From: Desulfosudis oleivorans
Lineage (GTDB): Bacteria; Desulfobacterota; Desulfobacteria; Desulfobacterales; SURF-7
Direction of reading: 5' to 3'
Assembly (NCBI GenBank): GCA_020723305.1
Contig: DYJC01000005.1
Location: 124,001 to 188,000, forward strand
Length of the DNA stretch: 64,000 bases
A model generated the notes under the pieces. It made no database searches. It was not told the origin of the DNA and worked only from the letters and a program-made list of their open reading frames with translations. Of this stretch, positions 40,045-50,548 are shown piece after piece (position 1 is the stretch's first letter; each line of letters opens with the position of its first letter). The position numbers and the translations under genes are program-made.

Positions 40045-41235
40045 ATGATACGAAAAGATATGAACCCTATTCAACAAAGTAAACATAAAATTTCGCGGTA
40101 CAAGTATCAGAATGATTCCATGTATTTCGCGCAGATTTCAGAAGAGATCAAGGATCTGGCCGCCGCGGAATTGTCGCAACTGGGTGCCACCAATATCATG
40201 GTATCCTTCCGCGGTATCTATTTCCAGGCCGATGCATCCAACCTGTATCGGATTCATTATCTGACAAAAGTTATTTCCCGGATTCTGGCGCCTCTGATTT
40301 CATTTCCCTGCAAGGATACCGACACTTTATACCAAAAGGGGAAAACAATCCAGTGGGAAGATTTCTTCAAACCAGACACCACTTTTGCGGTTACCGCTAA
40401 TGTCTCCAACAGCCATATCAATCACTCCAAATATGCGGCGCTTTGCCTCAAAGACGCAATCGTCGATTATTTCAGAGAAAAAACCGGAACCCGTCCGAAT
40501 GTGGATACCCTTGATCCGGATCTCCAGTTTAATCTTCACATCCGGGATAACAAAGCCGATATCAGTCTGGATACCGGAGGAGGGCCCCTTCACAAAAGAG
40601 GGTATCGGGAGGAAACCGTAACCGCTCCCATGCAGGAAACCATTGCCGCAGCCATTATCCAGCATACCCGCTGGAAAGGAGAAATCCCGCTGGTCGATCC
40701 CATGTGCGGTTCCGGAACCCTGATCTGCGAGGCTTTGATGCACCAGTGCAGCATTCCACCCGGCCTTTTCCGGAAAAAATTCGGATTTGAATCTCTCCCG
40801 GATTTTGACCGCACTCTCTGGAAAAAAATCAAAAAACAGGCCGATGAAAAGATAAAGCCTCTGCACCGCGGCCTGATATCCGGAAGCGATATTTCAGCAG
40901 AGGCTGTTCAGGCTTCCAGAACCAACCTGATGGGAATTCCCCATGGAAACCAGGTGATCGTTGAAAAAAACGATTTCAGAGAAATCCCTGATCTGGAAAA
41001 CCGGGTCATTGTAACCAATCCTCCGTATGGAATCCGCATGGGTACAAAAATCAATCTGGATGATTTGTATAAAAGCCTCGGAGATTTTTTAAAACAGAAG
41101 TGCAAGGGCTCAACCGCCTATATCTATTTTGGTGAAAGGAAGTTTATCAAACAGATCGGTTTGAAACCTTCCTGGAAAATACCGATAAAGACCGGAGGCC
41201 TTGACGGAAGGCTGGTCAAATTTGAGATGTACTGA
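40045..41235 (+). CDS. THUMP-domain 23S rRNA guanine-N2 methyltransferase (RlmL-type)
   Basis: A THUMP RNA-binding region (residues about 60-170) precedes a class I methyltransferase with VDPMCGSGTLICEALM and the catalytic TNPPYGIRMG (N-x-x-Y pattern for N2-guanine). At 396 aa it matches the short YpsC/RlmL-N form, lacking the RlmK half of the long E. coli fusion. It probably methylates 23S rRNA at the G2445-equivalent site. It is convergent with the res gene; the intervening 100 nt contain no clear terminator. Confidence 0.88.
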   Translation: MIRKDMNPIQQSKHKISRYKYQNDSMYFAQISEEIKDLAAAELSQLGATNIMVSFRGIYFQADASNLYRIHYLTKVISRILAPLISFPCKDTDTLYQKGKTIQWEDFFKPDTTFAVTANVSNSHINHSKYAALCLKDAIVDYFREKTGTRPNVDTLDPDLQFNLHIRDNKADISLDTGGGPLHKRGYREETVTAPMQETIAAAIIQHTRWKGEIPLVDPMCGSGTLICEALMHQCSIPPGLFRKKFGFESLPDFDRTLWKKIKKQADEKIKPLHRGLISGSDISAEAVQASRTNLMGIPHGNQVIVEKNDFREIPDLENRVIVTNPPYGIRMGTKINLDDLYKSLGDFLKQKCKGSTAYIYFGERKFIKQIGLKPSWKIPIKTGGLDGRLVKFEMY

Positions 41236-41337
41236 AATATAATATGACGGGCTGACGGCAGAAGCGGTCTTTTCCCCTTTTCCGTAGATACGTCTCTGAA
41301 TCTTTATGACAAGCCCTGTAAAGGTTTTTTCATAATT

Positions 41338-44022
41338 TCATTTTTCTTTTCGCCATTCAAAATTCTTTACCAGTGTGTCAAAACTCATATTCGTTTTTAC
41401 TTCTTCATGTGGGATCATAATATATTTCCAAGGTTTACCATTATTCTGGGTGGTGAATTCGGTTGCGTGATTGCAATAGATGAAAGCAGCCCTGCATTTT
41501 TCCTGTACATCGGCAGTGTCAATATCTCCTTCCTTTTTTGTTTCAATCAAATAGATTGTGCAGGATGTTTCAGCGACAAAATCAGGATGGTATTGTCTGG
41601 AGTTGTGTTTCCAGTAAATGTGGAACTGATTGATTGCCGGACGCAGCCATTTGAGGACAGCTTTGTCTTGCTCAAGGATAGCTGCAAAATCTTTTTCTGT
41701 TTTTGAATCAAATTTATACAGGGTATGACAGGCTTTTTTAAAACCGGAAAAAACCTTGCTTGGAATTGAGTTGGTCGGTGTGATGGTATCTATAAAATGA
41801 TGAATGCTGTCTTTTTTATATTTTGAAAAGTTGTGCTCCTCGATTCGGGTGAAAGGTTTTACAATGGGTGTTTGAAAACCTGGCGCCTCATAATAAAAAT
41901 GCTCCATCATCTGAGCGTAAATGTATTGCCCGATTTCTTTTTTATGATACTGAACAACATTTGCCATCTGTTCATCTTCGAGATAGGTTTTAAATTTATC
42001 AATAACTTGTCCGGCTAATTTAAAAAGAAGGTCTGCCTGAACATCATAATCGATTTCAGAAAAATTGATCAGTTCATTAACAATTATATTATCAAGATGA
42101 TCCGGTGTGATCCGTCCCTTGCCAATCACAATATCAATGCTGTTTTCCTGTTCCCGAAGTTTTTTGATAAGGATTTCTTCTGAGACAGGCTGAAGGTTTA
42201 TATTTTTTACATCCAGATCAAAGTCATGAAACCCGGATTGTATGACTTCACTTTGCTGGATGGTAATCCGGGGGATTTCAATAATATGCGCTACAAAATC
42301 ATGAACCATTAATTCATAAGTATCTTCAACTTCTTTGATCATTTGATCGGCAAAAAGAAGTTTTTGAGGAGAACTGAAAATTTTCTGTTTAATTTTTTCT
42401 ACAGCGATGTGTTTTATTTCTGATTTGGTCAAGTCATTGATGTTAGAGACTGTTGTATTTAACTCAGGAAGAGTTGAGAGAATAGTCTTTTGCAATTCCA
42501 GACTGATTTGAGCCTTTTCTTTTTCTACAGGCTGAGCCAAACTTTCAATCCTTGTTTGTTCATCCTGCATTTTTTGCTCAAGCGATGAAACAGAAGTGAG
42601 GACTTCTTTTTGCTGGTTTGCTTCCTGTGGATCGATTTCGATAATATTTTCTTGCCGGATGATTGAATCCGGCTTGTTGGCTTCGTCAACTATCTCTTGG
42701 AAACGGTCATGGGCCACAATAGTCAATTTATCCACTTTGTCGCTGCCCGTTCTTTTCCCGTATGGCAACCGAAGCCCCCGGCCAATGGTTTGTTCTCTCA
42801 GCGTTTGTGAGGCTGCGGAGCGAAGGGGAATAATCGTGTATAGATTGGTGACATCCCATCCCTCTTTGAGCATATTCACATGAATGACAATTTCAATGGC
42901 GTTATCTGGATGTTCAAGTGAAAGAAGTTGTGCAATGTTTTCTTCTTTTTCACCACCCTTCTGATTTGAATGAATCTCCATTACCTTATCAGCATAATAT
43001 CCATCAAAAAAGGATTTTGAAACAATAAGGTCTTTTATTTTGGCGGCATGCTGGGTATCTTTTGCTACCACCAGCACAAACGGTTTCACATTTTGAGTTT
43101 TGGTGTCCCGTGAATAAATATCAAGGGCGACCTTTGTATCTTCATGAAGGCGGATGCCGTCTTCCAGTTTGATCCTGTCAATGTCTTCTGTTGAATAGTT
43201 TTTCGGATCAAAATCTTTCCGTGTTGCAACCGCAGGTTCTTTGACAAAGCCATCCTTAATTGCTTTTGCCAGCGAATATTCATACACGACATTTTTAAAC
43301 TTGATCGCGCCGCCGCTTCGTTCCACTTGCGGGGTCGCAGTCAGTTCCAGTCCCAAAACCGGTTTTAACTCATTAATAACCTGCAAGCCCCGGTCTGCCC
43401 GATAATGATGGGACTCATCCATCAGCAATACCAGATCCTCCAGACTGGACAGATAATTGAAATATGGTTCACCCAGCACTTCGGACATCCGTTTGATGTG
43501 GGGTGAGGTGTTGCCTCGTGTTTCAGCATTGATTTTCGAGATATTGAACAGGCTGATATTGATTCCGGATTTTTGAAACATCAATGTCTGCCGAAAGTCC
43601 TTGTAATTATCGCCGGTAATAATCCGTGGGCGCTGGTTCACAAACTCGCCGATCCCGTTAAATACATATTTGGGGTGATTGGTTTCAGAAAGGTCTGTGA
43701 TCAGCTTTTCGTAAATTGTCAGATTCGGGGAAAGTACAAAGAAATTTTTAAGTCCTTTTTCAAGATAAAGATAAGAGATAAATGCGCCCATTAGCCTGGT
43801 TTTACCAACACCCGTGGCAAGGGAAAAACAGAGAGACGGAAAATCCCGCTCAAAATCCGTGCATGTGGGGTAACTGGTTTTTACTTTTTCCAGTTCAGCC
43901 GGAAGATCGACGCTTTTTTTCAACAGCAATTGATCAGCTATCTCCGCAAGTATATTCAAACTTTCAGATTGCGGAGGACGGAGACTCAAACGGTTCTTGA
44001 GGGAGGCTGCTATTTTATTCAT
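41338..44022 (-). CDS. type III restriction enzyme Res subunit (helicase-nuclease)
   Basis: Res couples ATP-dependent translocation to DNA cleavage. The SF2 motor has the P-loop ATGVGKT (69-75), DESHH (202-206), LELTATP and QTIGRGLRLP (motif VI). The C-terminal PD-(D/E)XK nuclease is intact: HPD (D814) followed by ETK (E827, K829). Its length of 894 aa is within the type III range. The ATG overlaps the mod stop as TAATG, the usual tight mod-res coupling. The gene shows no frameshift or stop. Confidence 0.92.
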   Translation of the reverse strand: MNKIAASLKNRLSLRPPQSESLNILAEIADQLLLKKSVDLPAELEKVKTSYPTCTDFERDFPSLCFSLATGVGKTRLMGAFISYLYLEKGLKNFFVLSPNLTIYEKLITDLSETNHPKYVFNGIGEFVNQRPRIITGDNYKDFRQTLMFQKSGINISLFNISKINAETRGNTSPHIKRMSEVLGEPYFNYLSSLEDLVLLMDESHHYRADRGLQVINELKPVLGLELTATPQVERSGGAIKFKNVVYEYSLAKAIKDGFVKEPAVATRKDFDPKNYSTEDIDRIKLEDGIRLHEDTKVALDIYSRDTKTQNVKPFVLVVAKDTQHAAKIKDLIVSKSFFDGYYADKVMEIHSNQKGGEKEENIAQLLSLEHPDNAIEIVIHVNMLKEGWDVTNLYTIIPLRSAASQTLREQTIGRGLRLPYGKRTGSDKVDKLTIVAHDRFQEIVDEANKPDSIIRQENIIEIDPQEANQQKEVLTSVSSLEQKMQDEQTRIESLAQPVEKEKAQISLELQKTILSTLPELNTTVSNINDLTKSEIKHIAVEKIKQKIFSSPQKLLFADQMIKEVEDTYELMVHDFVAHIIEIPRITIQQSEVIQSGFHDFDLDVKNINLQPVSEEILIKKLREQENSIDIVIGKGRITPDHLDNIIVNELINFSEIDYDVQADLLFKLAGQVIDKFKTYLEDEQMANVVQYHKKEIGQYIYAQMMEHFYYEAPGFQTPIVKPFTRIEEHNFSKYKKDSIHHFIDTITPTNSIPSKVFSGFKKACHTLYKFDSKTEKDFAAILEQDKAVLKWLRPAINQFHIYWKHNSRQYHPDFVAETSCTIYLIETKKEGDIDTADVQEKCRAAFIYCNHATEFTTQNNGKPWKYIMIPHEEVKTNMSFDTLVKNFEWRKEK

Positions 44023-45692
44023 TATGGATCCTCCTCGTCGAATAAAACCATTTGCTTGTCTGGAACAGAAGCCCTGGTTTTCTTTTGTATCTTTTCTTTG
44101 GGGCCAGGAGGCACAAAATCAGGCGCATTGTCATCAACCGGCATGTTAATGATATTCAAGCTGTAATCGTCCCTGCCGAATTCACACCTTCCCAAAAGCA
44201 TGTTGGGAATTTTCTTTACATTGATATTGAAGTATCTTGTTTCACAGGCTTTAGAAAAAGACTTGCAGCAGATAAGCAGGCTTTCATCCAATTTCATCTC
44301 CTCGTGAACCTTATCCAAAAACTCAATAGTCACAAATTGCGTGGTGGTGAAAATATAATCTTTTTCTGTTGATCTGCCCTGTTTCCAGTAAATTTCAGCA
44401 TCCGGCTGATACCTGAACCCCTCATGCTTTGCCATGGCCGCAGCCAGCATGTCTGCATTATACCGCTCGTCAATAATCCAGTTTCCATATTGGTCTGCTT
44501 TCAGCAAACTAGGGGCCAGATAATAATATTTGAATCCGCCGCCGCCTTTCCAGTCGACAGCTTTAGAAACCCCGCCCTGGTCTGTCCCGTCAATAACTTT
44601 TTTCAAGCGGGGCAGGCAATGTGTGTGGCAGTGCTCACCCAGTTCAATGCCGATCCAGCGGCGGCCCATTTTGTGGGCAACAGCAGCGGTGGTGCCGGAA
44701 CCAAGGAAAGAATCAAGAATGAGGTCGCCGGGCTTTGTCGTTAACTCCAAAATACGAAATGCCAGTTTTTCTGGTTTTGGAGTATCGAACGCCTTCTCAC
44801 CTTCAAACAAGCCTTTGAGTTCTGAACTGGCATTTCTTGTACTTCCAGCGAACTCATATGGCCACCACGTTTGGTTCACAACACCTTCTTTGACTTCTGA
44901 CAAAAATTTTTTTTCCATTGGGAATTCGGCATTACCGCTTTTGCCCCACCAGATTCGATTATCTGCGGCAAGTTCTTTCATTTTGTCCGGGGGGCGTCTC
45001 CAGCTACTACCCTTGGGAGGGAATACCTCTCTTCCAGCTTTGTTTTTGATGGCGTAATAGTCCCTTTCCCGGTACTCTACACGAGTCAAGGGAGTACCAA
45101 GCCATGGCCCTCGAGAGTCTTCATCTGGGTTCGTGTAATTTGCGAGTTGTTTCGAATTTCTTGCAAGCAGGTTTGGTTGAAACCAGCTTGTCTTTTTATA
45201 GGCTAAGATGTGGTTATGAGTTTCCGCGATCCCTGTGGCGTTATTGCCCGGCGTATCTTTGGACTGCCATACTATGTTTGCAATAAAACTTGAGCGTCCA
45301 AATATTTCGTCCATTAGTACCTTTAGATAATGGCTTTCGTTATCGTCAATTGCGATCCAAATTGAGCCTTCAGCAGACATAATTTTTTTTAGTATTTCCA
45401 AACGGTCCCTTATTAGTGACAGCCATAATGAATGCTCAATTCCATCATCATATTGTTTGAACGCTGAACCGGTATTGTAAGGGGGGTCTATAAAGATACA
45501 TTTGATTTTCCCCGCAAAATCCTGTTCCAAAGCTTTCAAAGCCAATAAATTGTCGCCAAAGATGAGCATGTTTTCAGCGGTCTTGTCGCCATATGACTTT
45601 TCCGGATCTTCGATGAGAATGCGGGGTTCCAGAACCGGCTGTTTATCCTTGCCGATCCAGGTCAGTTCCAATTTCTGTTTTGTTCCATTCAT
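44022..45692 (-). CDS. type III DNA methyltransferase Mod (adenine, beta class)
   Basis: The order DPPY (69-72) then DSFLGSGTT (327-335) is the beta-class arrangement of type III Mod enzymes that make N6-methyladenine. The region about 110-300 between them would carry target recognition. The C-terminal 200 residues likely contact Res. I start at the ATG at 45692. The same frame stays open for 27 codons upstream without an ATG, GTG or TTG, and the nearest GGAG is about 13 nt away. The N-terminus is therefore less certain than the rest. Length is 556 aa. Confidence 0.9.
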   Translation of the reverse strand: MNGTKQKLELTWIGKDKQPVLEPRILIEDPEKSYGDKTAENMLIFGDNLLALKALEQDFAGKIKCIFIDPPYNTGSAFKQYDDGIEHSLWLSLIRDRLEILKKIMSAEGSIWIAIDDNESHYLKVLMDEIFGRSSFIANIVWQSKDTPGNNATGIAETHNHILAYKKTSWFQPNLLARNSKQLANYTNPDEDSRGPWLGTPLTRVEYRERDYYAIKNKAGREVFPPKGSSWRRPPDKMKELAADNRIWWGKSGNAEFPMEKKFLSEVKEGVVNQTWWPYEFAGSTRNASSELKGLFEGEKAFDTPKPEKLAFRILELTTKPGDLILDSFLGSGTTAAVAHKMGRRWIGIELGEHCHTHCLPRLKKVIDGTDQGGVSKAVDWKGGGGFKYYYLAPSLLKADQYGNWIIDERYNADMLAAAMAKHEGFRYQPDAEIYWKQGRSTEKDYIFTTTQFVTIEFLDKVHEEMKLDESLLICCKSFSKACETRYFNINVKKIPNMLLGRCEFGRDDYSLNIINMPVDDNAPDFVPPGPKEKIQKKTRASVPDKQMVLFDEEDP

Positions 45693-45830
45693 TGATTTTT
45701 TATACCGCTCCTGATCAAGTTCAGGGGTAAAAGTTACCTCCGCCCCAAGTTCTTGAATCTTTTTTAAACCTCGTTACTCCCTCTGCATCCGATCTGATCC
45801 AGTAACATCCGGCAAAATCCAAAACTTTTC

Positions 45831-45858
45831 TTGACATTGTGATACGTTTTTGTTTAAA
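45831..45858 (+). promoter_or_regulatory. candidate promoter of the small RNA
   Basis: TTGACA (45831-45836) and TTAAAT (45854-45859) are 17 nt apart on the plus strand, opposite to all neighbouring genes. The -10 matches only four of six positions. Confidence 0.4.
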
Positions 45859-45865
45859 TAAAATC

Positions 45866-45924
45866 AATCCAGCAATCTGGAGGTGGATGGCGAAAGCCAT
45901 CGGGCCCGTGAGGGCCTTTTTTTT
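45866..45924 (+). ncRNA. candidate small structured RNA with intrinsic terminator
   Basis: Three hairpins follow each other within 50 nt: CCAG-CAAT-CTGG (45869-45880), GATGGC-GAAA-GCCATC (45886-45901) and GGCCC-GTGA-GGGCC (45903-45916). The last is followed by eight Ts (45917-45924). Loops two and three are GNRA tetraloops. The T run fixes the direction as plus, antisense to the SNF2-DUF3800-mod-res cluster and ending 3 nt before the DUF3800 stop. The second hairpin also contains an ATG with GGAGG just upstream that would read 15 codons; this is less likely than an RNA. It matches no riboswitch or sRNA I know. Confidence 0.55.
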
Positions 45925-45926
45925 GA

Positions 45927-46700
45927 CTAAATGAATTTCCTGCCAAAAACCCTTTCTCCCTGGCGATCATACTTGTCCTGTAATAATTCGATCACTTTCT
46001 TTGAAAAGGATGCAAGCGGCCGCCCTAGCAATCCCTCTGCATCAAGTATCTCAGCCCGGCTCGGATGGGCGATAATATCCGCCAACTGAAGACCGCTGAT
46101 GTTGGCTGTCTTTGGTTTTACCTTAAGCTGCATGCTTGTAAGCGATTTCTGAAACTGTTCTGGCCCGACAAATTCCGTTCCCTGTTTCCAAAGGCGATGA
46201 AATGAATCCTTCAGCCGCCGGTCTTCCTTTCCACCTCGTGATTCCGCCATTACATCACCAGTGACGTTTTCCCTGTTCAGCCAGAAATTGAAACGTTCCA
46301 ACAGGACAGCCAAACAATAATGGTAGGGATCATAACGCCATGTAGCATAGGTATCCTTATGCTTCTTTTTATCAAGGCAGACGGTAATAACCGTATATTG
46401 CCATTTTTTCAGGCAATCAAGCAGTTCCGTATCAAAAAGGATTCTGGCTTCCGGATCTGTCAAGCTATGAAAAGGAGGTTTGCCGCTCAACAATTCCTTC
46501 CTATGAAGCGTAACCGGATCATCCGGATGAGCGCTAAAGTGCCTGACTTTCATAGCTTCAAGTTCAGGATTGAGTTCATTCTTCACATAATCCAGACCGA
46601 TAATCACTCCTGTCAGACTCAAAAACCGGTGGTTTGGATTATCCGAGTTCCCCATATCCGGATTGCCCACTTCATCAACATACATCCGGAATTTGTCCAT
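45927..46700 (-). CDS. DUF3800 domain protein
   Basis: The N-terminal YVDEVGN (D9, E10), a central LHRKELLSGK, TVCLDKKKH and the C-terminal SGLQLADIIAHPSR (D208) are the conserved acidic motifs of DUF3800. Pattern and spacing suggest a metal-dependent nuclease-like fold. These proteins often occur in defence and mobile regions, but the reaction is not established here. The gene lies between the SNF2 helicase and mod on the same strand, with 98 nt to the former and 234 nt to the latter. Confidence 0.85.
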   Translation of the reverse strand: MDKFRMYVDEVGNPDMGNSDNPNHRFLSLTGVIIGLDYVKNELNPELEAMKVRHFSAHPDDPVTLHRKELLSGKPPFHSLTDPEARILFDTELLDCLKKWQYTVITVCLDKKKHKDTYATWRYDPYHYCLAVLLERFNFWLNRENVTGDVMAESRGGKEDRRLKDSFHRLWKQGTEFVGPEQFQKSLTSMQLKVKPKTANISGLQLADIIAHPSRAEILDAEGLLGRPLASFSKKVIELLQDKYDRQGERVFGRKFI

Positions 46701-46798
46701 AATCTGTTCTCTCTATAGCTCTTTCTCTGAACCGGATAATAAACACCGGCAATGCAGAATAAAATAAAAAATACCCTGATTATTTCTATGCAATCGAT

Positions 46799-49702
46799 TT
46801 ACACCAATTTCCATCGTACCAGAAACAACCTGTTTTTTTCAATTCTTTGTTTGAGGCAGACTTCTATTTCCTCAATAAGCTTTTCTTTCCGAGAATCCAC
46901 TTCATCCTGTGCCTGAAACAGGTTCATGCGAAGGGCATTTCGTTTTTTCTCCATCTCCTTGATTTGGCGCTGGCTCTTCACCTTATCTTCCAGATTCAGA
47001 ATTTTTTTAGCTTCGGTTTTCCGAAACTTTATCTCCTTGTCCATTACCTTAAGCTCAATTTCAAGGCTTCCTTTCACATCATCCGCCCACTTGTCCAGTT
47101 TCTCCATTTCAATATCAAAAAATCCCGAATTACGCTTCTCATTATTCTGTAAAATATCTGCCTGCATCAGGTCGGCAACATGCTGCAACTGGTCTTGAAC
47201 CGCTTGAACACCACTGGATAAGTTATGAGAAGATACTGTTGCCGGAAGCGAAAAGAATCTCCGGCACTGCTCAGAATCCAATTCCAAACCATCATCTGAA
47301 ATACCGCACAGCAAAACATAATCTTCTGTTTCAAAAGAATGAATTGTCAGGTTTGACACACTGATCCATCCTGATTTGTTGATCAGCGTTTCAAGAATGG
47401 AAACCTTTACGTAGGAATCCGTATAATTAAAAATCAATTCCTGAGCCGTCAAAAATAGAATCTTGCATTGTTCAATAATTTTTTGAGCCAAGGGATGACC
47501 GATCCGGTATATATTTGCATCTTCAATATTTTTGCCGATCCTGTATGGGCCGGGATATATCTTCTCATTGGGGAAAGGATTTTGAACCAAAGTAAAAGAA
47601 TGGTCGTCATTATCAAAGCGGGCATATGAGGAAAGATAATATCGGGTGATCTGCCAGAGCCAGTTTTCGTATTTTGAGATATAATCCTTGCTTTTCAGCA
47701 AATTTACCCGCAGTTTTTCATGGACTTCTTCGTCGAAGGATTCAAGCAGTTTCTGGCGGGTGGACTTGAGATGATCGTCAATCTGGTCTTCCAGCTCTTT
47801 TTGCAGAGAATTAAAAGCGGTTTGAATCTCATCGATGGTTCTGCAATTTTGATAAATCTGTACAATCCTTTTTTCAAAATCAACACCGGATTCAATACTG
47901 CCCAAGACCTCGTCGCTGACACCAAAAACACCGGAAAAGAGTTTGAATTTTTCCGATAATAGTTCATAGACACGCTGGTCAGCCGCATTGTTTTTGTTCA
48001 GAAAATTAACCACTACCACATCATGCTGCTGTCCGTACCGGTGACATCTTCCGATTCTCTGTTCAATCCGCTGGGGATTCCAGGGAAGATCATAATTAAC
48101 CACAATAGAGCAGAATTGCAGGTTTATTCCCTCGGCAGCAGCTTCAGTTGCGATCATGATTATCGCTTCATCCCTGAAGTATTCCACAATGGCGGACCTT
48201 TTATCAGCGGTTTGAGAGCTGGAAATCCTGTCTGTATTCTGATTTTTTTTTAACCATTTTTGATAAATCTCCCGGGAAAGCGGGTCACTGTTTGTTCCGT
48301 TAAACAACGCAATCTTATTTTTAAATTCCGTGTTCTCAAGAATGTTGTAAAGGTATTCCTGTGTTCTGCGGGATTCCGTAAAAATAATAGCTTTTTTTTG
48401 ACCTCCCAGGCGCCCGATTTCTGCAAAACCCTTTTTGAGAGCGGTTAAAAGAACTTCTCCTTTTGAATTTTTGGTGATGGATTTTGCAAGCTGCTTAAAT
48501 ATGTTCAGGTCATTTATCTCTTTTTTGATCTGCCCGATATCCTCAGGGGTATATTGCTTTTCCTGTTTTTTAAAAAGAGATGATCCTGCTTCTTCGTCTA
48601 TTTTTTCTTCATCTTCCATCCACTCATCACTTAATTCATCATATATTTCAAAATTCTCTGAAATAACAGCTTCTATATCTTCCTGTTTTTCCTGAAAGGC
48701 TTTAATCGTTTCAAGCTTTGTGGCCAAGGCTTCAAGCGTACCTGCAATCGCAAATGTTGATGAGGCAAGAAGCCGTCGCAGAATAAGGGTCATTAATTTA
48801 CGCTGACTGGCGGGAAGGGCATAAAGATTTACCCTTTGTAAATAGGATGAGACCAGATCATAGAGCTGTTGTTCTTCTGTGGATGGAATAAATTCCTGTG
48901 TAATAGCCAGACGATTGGTAAACTTTATGTATTCCAGTACCTGACGTCGGAGTGTTCTTTTACAGACGGGTTTCAGGCGGTTTTTTAAGTCATCAAAACT
49001 GTCATCCCCTGTCAGACGTGAAAACTGGTTTTTATAACTTTGCAGGTCACCGAAAGTATATTCATCGATAATACTGACAAGGCCATACAATTCAAGAAGT
49101 GAGTTCTGTAAAGGGGTTGCTGAAAGAAGAATTTTCGGGGCATGAGAAACGGCTCTTTTTATGGCATTTGCAATTTTATTGGCCGGTTTATACACATTGC
49201 GCAACCGATGGGCTTCATCAATTACTACCAGATCCCACTTAATCTTTGTTATATAAGGTTCTTTGGCTCGAGCAAAATGATAGGAGCAAATAACAATCCG
49301 TTCCTGTTCAAAAGGATTTAGAATCCCACTTTTAATTTTATGATTAAAGGAAGGGGTTTCAAGAATAAGAGACGGAAGAAAAAATTTGTCCAGGAGTTCC
49401 TGATTCCATTGCTTCCGAAGGTTTGCAGGCACGATGATAAGAATTTTCTTTTTTCTTTCCGCCCATTTCTGGGAAATAACAATACCGGCCTCAATGGTTT
49501 TTCCAAGCCCCACTTCATCGGCAAGGATCGCCCCTTTTGAAAGAGGAGATTTAAATGCAAACAAAGCAGCTTCAACCTGATGGGGATTTAAATCAACCTG
49601 GGCATCAAGCAGGGATGACGCAAGTTTTTGAAGATTATTTGAAGAATTCCGTTTGGTCAGCTCATAAGCAAAATATTTTGCATGGTAAGGTGTTAGCTGC
49701 AT
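46799..49702 (-). CDS. SNF2/RapA-like helicase of the restriction cluster
   Basis: A 967-residue SF2 ATPase with DEVGLGKT (62-69), DEAH (162-165), LLSATPLQN, VVNYDLPWNP and IEQRIGRCHRYGQQ, the SNF2/RapA set. The motor starts almost at residue 40, so there is no N-terminal accessory domain. The C-terminal 100 residues are a strongly charged coiled coil. No nuclease motif is seen. RapA-like helicases with this layout are found beside type III-like mod-res pairs, and the present operon position supports a joint function in DNA defence. Confidence 0.87.
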   Translation of the reverse strand: MQLTPYHAKYFAYELTKRNSSNNLQKLASSLLDAQVDLNPHQVEAALFAFKSPLSKGAILADEVGLGKTIEAGIVISQKWAERKKKILIIVPANLRKQWNQELLDKFFLPSLILETPSFNHKIKSGILNPFEQERIVICSYHFARAKEPYITKIKWDLVVIDEAHRLRNVYKPANKIANAIKRAVSHAPKILLSATPLQNSLLELYGLVSIIDEYTFGDLQSYKNQFSRLTGDDSFDDLKNRLKPVCKRTLRRQVLEYIKFTNRLAITQEFIPSTEEQQLYDLVSSYLQRVNLYALPASQRKLMTLILRRLLASSTFAIAGTLEALATKLETIKAFQEKQEDIEAVISENFEIYDELSDEWMEDEEKIDEEAGSSLFKKQEKQYTPEDIGQIKKEINDLNIFKQLAKSITKNSKGEVLLTALKKGFAEIGRLGGQKKAIIFTESRRTQEYLYNILENTEFKNKIALFNGTNSDPLSREIYQKWLKKNQNTDRISSSQTADKRSAIVEYFRDEAIIMIATEAAAEGINLQFCSIVVNYDLPWNPQRIEQRIGRCHRYGQQHDVVVVNFLNKNNAADQRVYELLSEKFKLFSGVFGVSDEVLGSIESGVDFEKRIVQIYQNCRTIDEIQTAFNSLQKELEDQIDDHLKSTRQKLLESFDEEVHEKLRVNLLKSKDYISKYENWLWQITRYYLSSYARFDNDDHSFTLVQNPFPNEKIYPGPYRIGKNIEDANIYRIGHPLAQKIIEQCKILFLTAQELIFNYTDSYVKVSILETLINKSGWISVSNLTIHSFETEDYVLLCGISDDGLELDSEQCRRFFSLPATVSSHNLSSGVQAVQDQLQHVADLMQADILQNNEKRNSGFFDIEMEKLDKWADDVKGSLEIELKVMDKEIKFRKTEAKKILNLEDKVKSQRQIKEMEKKRNALRMNLFQAQDEVDSRKEKLIEEIEVCLKQRIEKNRLFLVRWKLV

Positions 49703-49772
49703 ATTTCTGGTAGATTATAATTCACTCTCTTCATTATTTTGATTGTATAAACCCTTGCTTTTTTTGGAGATG

Positions 49773-49801
49773 AACATATAGGAAAGGCGCTTGTGTGTCA
49801 A
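49773..49801 (-). promoter_or_regulatory. candidate promoter of the SNF2-DUF3800-mod-res cluster
   Basis: On the minus strand TTGACA (49801-49796) and TATGTT (49778-49773) are 17 nt apart, about 70 nt upstream of the SNF2 ATG. A TATATG at 15-nt spacing overlaps. The 226-nt gap contains nothing else obvious. Confidence 0.5.
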
Positions 49802-49928
49802 CAATAGTGTTTGCGCAACATGTGGGGTGATGTGAAAAAATCCTGAAAAAAACAAAGATCCTTTCCTGAGCTATCATACGAACGGGTATAAGAGATCGGA
49901 TTGAAATTTTAATGACTGAATATAAATC

Positions 49929-50429
49929 TTATGGAGCAGTTTGATTCGATTGATTGAATCCCAATGGATGGGGTCGTTTCATCACTTCTTTAAATGAGAG
50001 CAGCTCTTTCTCCTGCGGAAATCTGGCGATTGTCTCATCCAGGACCTTCATGGATTCTTTCTTAAAGCCCAGCAATGACAAGGCTTCTGCATATCCTTTT
50101 GCAAAATCCACATTTTCAGGCAAAGAATCATGTTTTTTCTGGTAGAGCAGCAATGCCACCTCATAACACTTTCTGGCAAGTTCTTCCTTTTGCATTTGTT
50201 TATAAACCATCCCCTTGCTCAGCCATGCGGGTGCAAAATCCGGATCCTTCTTTGTGGCCTCCTGCAAAAGCGCCAGGGCTTCATCATACTGCCTCTCAAA
50301 TGATGCCATGTTTGCCTTCAGCCACAATGTTTTTACAGAGCCGGTTTCCGCATGTGAGCATGAAAAAAGAAAAATCATGACCAGCAGAAACAAACCCTTT
50401 TTTTGATTCTTTTCAAACCCTGTCCACAT
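49929..50429 (-). CDS. TPR-repeat lipoprotein
   Basis: The signal sequence ends in the lipobox LFSC (C24). About three tetratricopeptide repeats follow (for example ASFERQYDEALALLQEATKK, then FAPAWLSKGMVYKQM and KGYAEALSLLGFKKESM). Such proteins are usually periplasmic scaffolds at the inner or outer membrane. No partner is evident. The gene is divergent from asd. Its 166-aa length is short but complete. Confidence 0.78.
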   Translation of the reverse strand: MWTGFEKNQKKGLFLLVMIFLFSCSHAETGSVKTLWLKANMASFERQYDEALALLQEATKKDPDFAPAWLSKGMVYKQMQKEELARKCYEVALLLYQKKHDSLPENVDFAKGYAEALSLLGFKKESMKVLDETIARFPQEKELLSFKEVMKRPHPLGFNQSNQTAP

Positions 50430-50548
50430 GATATATAAAAAACCTGTCTGTTGGGGAAAATGGTTTTCATCTCTTTTTATATCAAGTTTATATCCAACCG
50501 TCCTGAGTGTGTCAACTCAGCACTACATGAAATGAAAAACTTTTCCAA

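Follow-up and report, generated by a model that had tools for sequence, protein, structure and literature searches.

A conserved SNF2–Mod–Res gene triad with an accessory DUF3800 gene in Desulfosudis oleivorans: a probable three-gene variant of type III restriction–modification

Introduction

Type III restriction systems are generally presented as made up of two genes, mod and res. Their products recognise sites that lack methylation and, as established for EcoP15I, cut once they have communicated over long distances along the DNA; the cutting is ATP-dependent and takes place at two unmethylated asymmetric sites, and methylation is on one strand. A stretch of 64,000 nucleotides from Desulfosudis oleivorans (contig DYJC01000005.1, positions 124,001 to 188,000; the whole stretch is called the window here) carries a Mod/Res pair of this kind together with genes for a SNF2/RapA-like helicase (SNF2 below) and a DUF3800 protein. 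This raises the question of whether the two additional genes belong to the restriction–modification (RM) system or only stand beside it. It was found that SNF2, Mod, and Res recur in distant relatives as a triad of fixed order and that the place of DUF3800 is taken elsewhere by other genes. The cluster is probably a three-gene variant of type III RM, gained as one cassette, with DUF3800 as accessory in an exchangeable slot. The conservation of the triad as a unit is well supported, and the mechanism of its motor is what we infer.

The four genes

Four intact open reading frames (ORFs), called as longest ORFs with no trained gene finder, lie on the minus strand, SNF2 first and followed by DUF3800, Mod, and Res (Table 1). 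This arrangement and the catalytic motifs, which an earlier note had read from the same DNA, were borne out by the ORFs, the motifs, and Pfam. The helicase shows GLGKT at residue 65, DEAH at 162, and QRIGR at 548, and matches SNF2-rel_dom (119 bits) and Helicase_C (74.6 bits), while the second gene matches DUF3800 with 48.6 bits (cut-off 21). Mod has DPPY at 69 and FLGSGT at 329; it matches N6_N4_Mtase (PF01555, 160.9 bits) and the PADLOC model MTase_III PDLC03636 (638 bits), and its solved relatives are 6k0w and EcoP15I 4zcf. Res has TGVGKT at 70, DESH at 202, PDF at 813, and ETK at 827, with 70.9 bits to ResIII and 608 bits to PADLOC REase_III PDLC03648. Its P-loop, DE.H, and PD...E.K residues (P813, D814, E827, K829) are invariant among 16 relatives.

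Judged by sequence, Mod has the build expected of a type III enzyme, DPPY and FxGxG around a target-recognition region, and so has Res, with a superfamily 2 (SF2) motor and a PD-(D/E)xK motif next to mod. In common with EcoP15I and EcoP1I are the beta-class Mod, whose variable region lies centrally between the two motifs, the Res with SF2 motor and C-terminal PD...E.K, and the adjacency of mod and res; similarity to EcoP15I Res itself is weak (28 bits). What sets the present system apart is a third gene, the SNF2 motor, and slots for accessory proteins.

The top PADLOC model for the helicase is DrmD (PDLC02619, 697 bits), and its score against NCBIfam DISARM_DrmD_b (NF038318) is 700 bits, below the cut-off of 950. 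The closest solved relative by both sequence and fold, over most of the length, is RapA. The start of RapA binds RNA polymerase. Because the match begins at RapA residue 133, this start is without a counterpart in SNF2, and the genomic partner also differs, being a type III RM pair here. The predicted model of the tail consists of long helices (residues 832–900 and 904–950), in agreement with the coiled-coil tail proposed in the earlier note.

Conservation of the triad

Relatives of the window Res, called class A, were gathered from plasmids, phylum genomes, GTDB genomes, and viral contigs. Of the resulting 123 loci, 6 come from plasmids, 80 from genomes, 29 from viral contigs, and 8 from the phylum; the window itself and the short loci L001–L016 stand outside this count. 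The 80 genome loci are the best 80 of at least 524 GTDB relatives, the plasmid loci come from 7 opened records of the 26 with a class A Res, and in some cases one contig or genome contributes more than one locus (e.g., L125 and L129). A helicase was scored as present when blastp gave it 300 bits or more against the window SNF2. On this basis, SNF2 lies on the same strand in 72 loci and on the opposite strand, downstream, in one (L121); 41 loci end too early upstream, and 9 have room but no SNF2. In 74 loci the sequence extends 9.8 kb or more upstream; SNF2 is found upstream on the same strand in 63 of them, lies elsewhere in one (L121), and is lacking in 10. The order SNF2–Mod–Res holds in 72/72 same-strand cases, among which L127 and L130 (see below) are counted.

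The earlier note had suggested an extended type III-like system including the helicase, to be given up if relatives generally lacked both additional genes. For the helicase, these counts point the other way and uphold the suggestion; for DUF3800, which was found in none of the 72 triads, such an absence is what was seen. According to record titles, the SNF2-bearing loci come from Planctomycetota, Bacteroidetes, Heliorestis, Nitrospira, cyanobacterial, and proteobacterial hosts. No class A Res was found among 50,697 phage genome records at 1e-40. One opened plasmid record was left out of the count: in Thioclava plasmid p5 (L023), a single ORF fuses the start of SNF2 to the end of Res with no Mod between, and it looks like a deletion product.

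Association with other type III classes

In the phylum, SNF2 is present in 20 of 395 genomes, including 8 of the 15 with a class A Res (0.76 expected, p 4.9e-8); when the window genome is excluded, the count is 7/14 (p 5.1e-7). With class C Res (PDLC03654), SNF2 occurs in 8/20 genomes (p 8.3e-7), 7 of which have both on one contig, and 13 class C genomes have no SNF2 on the class C contig. Inspection of neighbourhoods revealed that SNF2 precedes class C in seven loci and the EcoP1-type class B (PDLC03647) in one genome (G140). Five genomes have SNF2 without any of the three Res classes. Two of them (G319 and G244) hold SNF2 fragments, and in two others (G070 and G365) SNF2 stands at a contig end; in the fifth (G359, locus L165) an intact SNF2 adjoins a type I-E CRISPR system, with no Mod or Res in the stretch read.

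Nine of 50 plasmid records with SNF2 were opened, and in all nine the helicase gene is accompanied by a methyltransferase and a Res-like gene; one of these systems is of class A, three are of class B, and five are of class C. In one record (L296) the order is Mod–Res–SNF2. In the helicase tree, a single FastTree run rooted on DISARM helicases, class C forms one clade and class B falls at three separate places among class A. Because of these three places, the tree suggests that SNF2 has been coupled repeatedly with type III Mod/Res classes. A class C triad was also seen on the E. coli plasmid pEC316_2 (L294:10769-20521); of 5,426 E. coli genomes, 2 have it at near full length, and the other 155 with a match hold shorter pieces only.

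Shared history of helicase and Res

Pairwise distances were compared in 66 complete loci, including the window, L127, and L130. Tree distances correlate at 0.65 for SNF2–Res, 0.38 for SNF2–Mod, and 0.35 for Mod–Res, values reached by none of 999 permutations. With simple distances, the correlation is 0.68 for SNF2–Res, and the conserved part of Mod correlates with SNF2 at 0.47 and with Res at 0.53. The variable middle of Mod follows SNF2 only weakly, at 0.254 against a highest value of 0.249 in 499 permutations. The PDF...E.K pattern of Res is kept in 65 of the 66 loci.

In ten near pairs, hand-picked from the 25 closest, most end segments of Mod are 60–100% identical, and residues 151–300 are just 14–50% identical. 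By these alignments, the specificity region of Mod is exchanged, with helicase and Res remaining in place.

Exchangeable slots and DUF3800

The gap between SNF2 and Mod is below 200 bases in 20/72 triads and reaches up to 6.9 kb in the others, and that between Mod and Res is below 200 bases in 48/72. Plus-strand proteins of at least 110 amino acids were scanned, 80 of 81 from slot 1, which lies between SNF2 and Mod, and all 19 from slot 2. Among the 25 commonest of 60 Pfam families, which overlap, the 80 slot-1 proteins include AAA_21/AbiEii-like (13), AIPR (6), Schlafen AlbA_2 (6), AAA_13 (5), Bro-N (4), DUF2130 (3), Abi_2 (3), GmrSD (2), and PIN (2). Slot 2 includes YhcG/DUF1016 (5), RhuM (3), and Fic (2). 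The Aeromonas plasmid pE31A has an AAA + DUF4276 pair twice, in slot 1 of its class A system and in slot 2 of its class C system. By family matches, the slot genes look like exchangeable cargo and match accessory defence families.

Two observations on individual plasmids may be added. The one slot-1 protein left out of the scan is an IS256 transposase, which shares the space between SNF2 and Mod with an Abi-family gene in the triad of a conjugative Salmonella plasmid (L017) with drug-resistance genes. Plasmid pE31A carries two different SNF2–type III systems (L021 and L293).

In the window, DUF3800 occupies the slot that elsewhere holds Abi, AIPR, AbiEii-like, GmrSD, or PIN genes. A profile built from eleven sequences found no DUF3800 in loci L017–L140, and a fixed fourth component was rejected. 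Since 0/72 triads carry it, DUF3800 is one choice of cargo, outside the core, and not the equal part of an extended system that the earlier note had made of it. Its relatives sit with other systems. Ten closer ones were found, and five neighbourhoods were checked by Pfam. Relatives of 61–65% identity lie beside a UvrD helicase (L271), beside a type I RM operon (L274), and ahead of a reverse transcriptase and a lone type III Mod (L270:7036-11826, G237). A relative with 46% identity lies beside a type IIG-like enzyme (L277), and for L279 the neighbour scanned by Pfam matched no family. A distant DUF3800 was also seen between Mod and Res of another type III system (L284:3882-9588, G314). A viral scan with DUF3800 alone yielded no lead.

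The predicted model of DUF3800 was built on 3 sequences, with a predicted local distance difference test (pLDDT) score of 80.9 against 41.7–63.5 for the other four models. Its top matches are RNase HII 1eke (E 5.2e-4, template modelling (TM) score 0.45) and 2dff, and RNase HI is weaker. With RNase HII it shares this fold, the DExG start, and further invariant acidic residues (D9, E10, D110, D149, E153, and D208 are invariant in 11 aligned sequences), and it differs in a low identity of 13–15% and the modest TM score. With its RNase H fold and invariant acidic residues, the model marks DUF3800 as a probable RNase H-like nuclease. The accessible text of PMC10910872 reports this fold for DUF3800, likewise from a model, and also a link of DUF3800 to putative non-coding RNAs. 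Because of this link, known Rfam RNAs were sought near the cluster, and none was found up to E 1 in 40900–50500.

Relation to DISARM and other helicase–methyltransferase systems

On two virus-classed contigs, the triad stands inside a DISARM operon (L127:4501-18813 and L130:4460-18867) in the order DrmMII, DrmD, Mod, Res, DrmA, DrmB, DrmC, Vsr. Profile models support all eight genes of L127 and DrmA of L130, and the rest of L130 was assigned by blastp to L127. The L127 helicase (1396 bits) is over the NCBIfam DrmD cut-off, and the seven other helicases scanned, which belong to free class A, B, and C triads, reach 550–722 bits. Another locus (L298) has DrmD–DrmA–DrmB–DrmC–Vsr with a different Mod-like gene and an unclassified gene of 947 amino acids upstream. 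A plasmid search for DISARM-type DrmD at 1e-150 yielded no lead.

The window cluster shares with DISARM its DrmD-like helicase and, in L127 and L130, the triad itself. It was nevertheless rejected as DISARM because the window genome (97.9% complete) has no match to DrmA or DrmB with one model each (PDLC02575 and PDLC02583, E 0.001), and the helicase is below the DrmD cut-off.

The accessible text of PMC12458937 describes DISARM class I and ARMADA as pairing a RapA/BrxHII-like helicase with a DNA methyltransferase, and all four genes of ARMADA as needed for defence. The BrxHII/RapA-like helicase with a methyltransferase partner is common to those systems and the window, so a functional pairing is plausible here too; by the same text, the companions there are a PglX-like methyltransferase and a YprA-like helicase, in contrast to type III Mod and Res. 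YprA-like proteins were searched for in the window genome by a DrmA model only, with no match. The BREX models (PglZ, BrxC, PglX) are the best for none of the four genes, to which the BREX comparison was confined.

Gain as one cassette

In the three same-genus genomes that were found (G405, G406, and G407), both flanking genes adjoin, 4–53 bases apart by ORF ends, without the insert; the G406 contig begins inside the first flanking gene. As the insert is absent from all three, the cluster has the appearance of a single cassette, most simply explained by one gain of about 8.7 kb carrying just the four genes, with loss in the other genomes as an alternative. No integrase gene was seen in the segment, and target duplications were sought only by reading the segment ends. 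The GC content of the cluster is 41.5%, as compared with 44.6% for the rest of the window, and lies below the minimum (42.2%) of 78 overlapping windows of the same size elsewhere in the window.

The earlier note placed a promoter before the helicase. A site with 10/12 consensus matches does exist there; the frequency of such sites in the region, 26 as compared with 20.1 expected (standard deviation 3.6), is barely above chance, and the promoter is a candidate at most. Between SNF2 and the next gene upstream, only two minus-strand ORFs of 46 and 47 amino acids occur. A short helix-turn-helix gene, possibly a controller, stands directly before SNF2 in six plasmid systems (L017, L288, L289, L290, L293, and L294). 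Directly past DUF3800, two short GC-rich hairpins lie in tandem at 45886–45916. They belong to the 234-base gap between DUF3800 and Mod, a feature absent from the earlier note, for which the fold z-score is −0.99 and not significant. That the hairpins are a repeated element was ruled out, the window holding one copy.

Table 1. Features of the cluster and its surroundings, in window positions.
Feature	Position	Strand	Remarks
SNF2/RapA-like helicase, DrmD-like; first gene of the cluster	46799-49702	minus	967 amino acids; ORF and family searches
DUF3800 protein, accessory gene between SNF2 and Mod	45927-46700	minus	257 amino acids; ORF and Pfam
Mod, type III beta-class DNA methyltransferase	44022-45692	minus	556 amino acids; variable specificity region at about residues 150-300
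Res, type III restriction subunit, SF2 motor and C-terminal PD...E.K	41338-44022	minus	894 amino acids
Promoter-like site (TTGACA, 17, TATGTT) upstream of the helicase gene	49773-49801	minus	consensus match only
234-base gap between DUF3800 and Mod, small GC-rich hairpins	45693-45926	minus	possible terminator or internal start
Whole inserted segment, approximate ends	41236-49945		absent at the same site in three congeneric genomes
Flanking gene, RlmL-like RNA methyltransferase	40045-41235		by motif inspection only
Flanking TPR-like gene	49929-50429		named by inspection only; followed by a gene read as aspartate-semialdehyde dehydrogenase

Proposed mechanism and alternatives

In the mechanism proposed for the three-gene variant, Mod would methylate host sites, with the specificity set by its central region, and Mod with Res would restrict unmethylated incoming DNA. 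SNF2, a putative RapA/DrmD-like motor on double-stranded DNA, would form a complex with them as third subunit or act as a close partner of the restriction arm, where it is placed because its distances follow those of Res and the Mod core more closely than those of the specificity region. It would probably translocate on or remodel the target DNA so that Res slides, finds its partner site, or cuts despite bound proteins. DUF3800 would add a second, independent line of attack, on a target of its own, and the cluster as a whole would serve in defence.

Several points weigh against this reading. The relatives without SNF2 (10/74) include several with apparently intact Mod and Res, which suggests that the helicase is not strictly required. 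Broken or partial Mod or Res ORFs were seen in L115, L128, and L140, and the remaining ones look whole. Since no SNF2 match at 1e-60 occurs throughout the genomes of L026, L056, L098, L136, L139, and L140 or in the virus records of L115, L122, L128, and L132, genuine exceptions exist. Looked for as simple patterns, the motif DPPY of Mod is missing in 8 of the 66 loci and TGVGKT of Res in 7. SNF2 occurs in only 2 of the 26 genomes with class B (p 0.39), joint transfer, and not contact alone, can yield the SNF2–Res correlation, and the DUF3800–Mod gap would allow the genes on either side of it to be transcribed separately.

Among the alternatives, the one that accounts for the nearness of the helicase to DrmD models is a reduced or ancestral DISARM, with DrmD and type III Mod/Res replacing the DISARM methyltransferase, drmABC lost or never gained, and a DISARM-like function in sensing in place of type III cutting. 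The operons of L127 and L130 and the composition of L298 are in keeping with it. Nevertheless, the remaining 70 of the 72 triads have no match to L127 DrmMII, DrmA, DrmB, or DrmC within the fetched DNA, the window genome lacks matches to the DrmA and DrmB models, the helicase is under the NCBIfam cut-off, and Res retains its nuclease motif; a reduced DISARM is unlikely. It is quite unlikely that an ordinary type III RM pair lies by chance beside an unrelated helicase and DUF3800 in a defence island. Such chance would explain the loci without SNF2 and the company of DUF3800 relatives with other systems, but the association of SNF2 spans several phyla and plasmids, with fixed order and three Mod/Res classes, and the SNF2–Res distances correlate.

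The terminator-like hairpins between DUF3800 and Mod raise the thought of two adjacent systems, SNF2 + DUF3800 and Mod + Res, divided at this 234-base gap. This division is very unlikely in view of the triads in which SNF2 stands less than 200 bases from Mod, the absence of DUF3800 from all 72, and the presence of all four genes in the segment that the three congeners lack. In a mainly epigenetic switch, Mod with a swapped specificity would regulate genes while the RapA-like protein remodels transcription complexes, as might be read from the variation of the specificity region between otherwise similar systems and from RapA as the closest solved structure. However, Res keeps PDF...E.K almost throughout, the N-terminal part of RapA has no counterpart, and the slot genes match anti-phage families, which makes the switch a most improbable explanation.

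Implications

In the literature searched, with subscription journals mostly outside the search, no SNF2 gene was found described as a regular part of type III RM and no type III Mod/Res inside DISARM. The accessible texts of PMC12458937, PMC10853773, PMC10910872, PMC12278908, PMC3874151, and PMC9142583 contain no description of the triad. The novelty of the triad as a type III RM variant is not proven. A wider proposition is put forward tentatively, as possible though doubtful: SNF2–Mod–Res may be a distinct, widespread type III RM subtype with a DrmD-like motor as working third subunit, at least three Mod/Res classes, and slots for interchangeable effectors of a second line, and its incorporation into DISARM may form an evolutionary bridge between type III RM and DISARM and be the source of DrmD.

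If a conserved third motor is real in several phyla, databases list many three-part systems as plain type III RM with a stray or DISARM-labelled helicase. The triad would also offer a testable account of the role of DrmD in DISARM; the interplay of DrmD with the DISARM core is named as future work in the accessible text of PMC9142583. Moreover, the accessory slots are a place to seek anti-phage effectors, DUF3800 among them.

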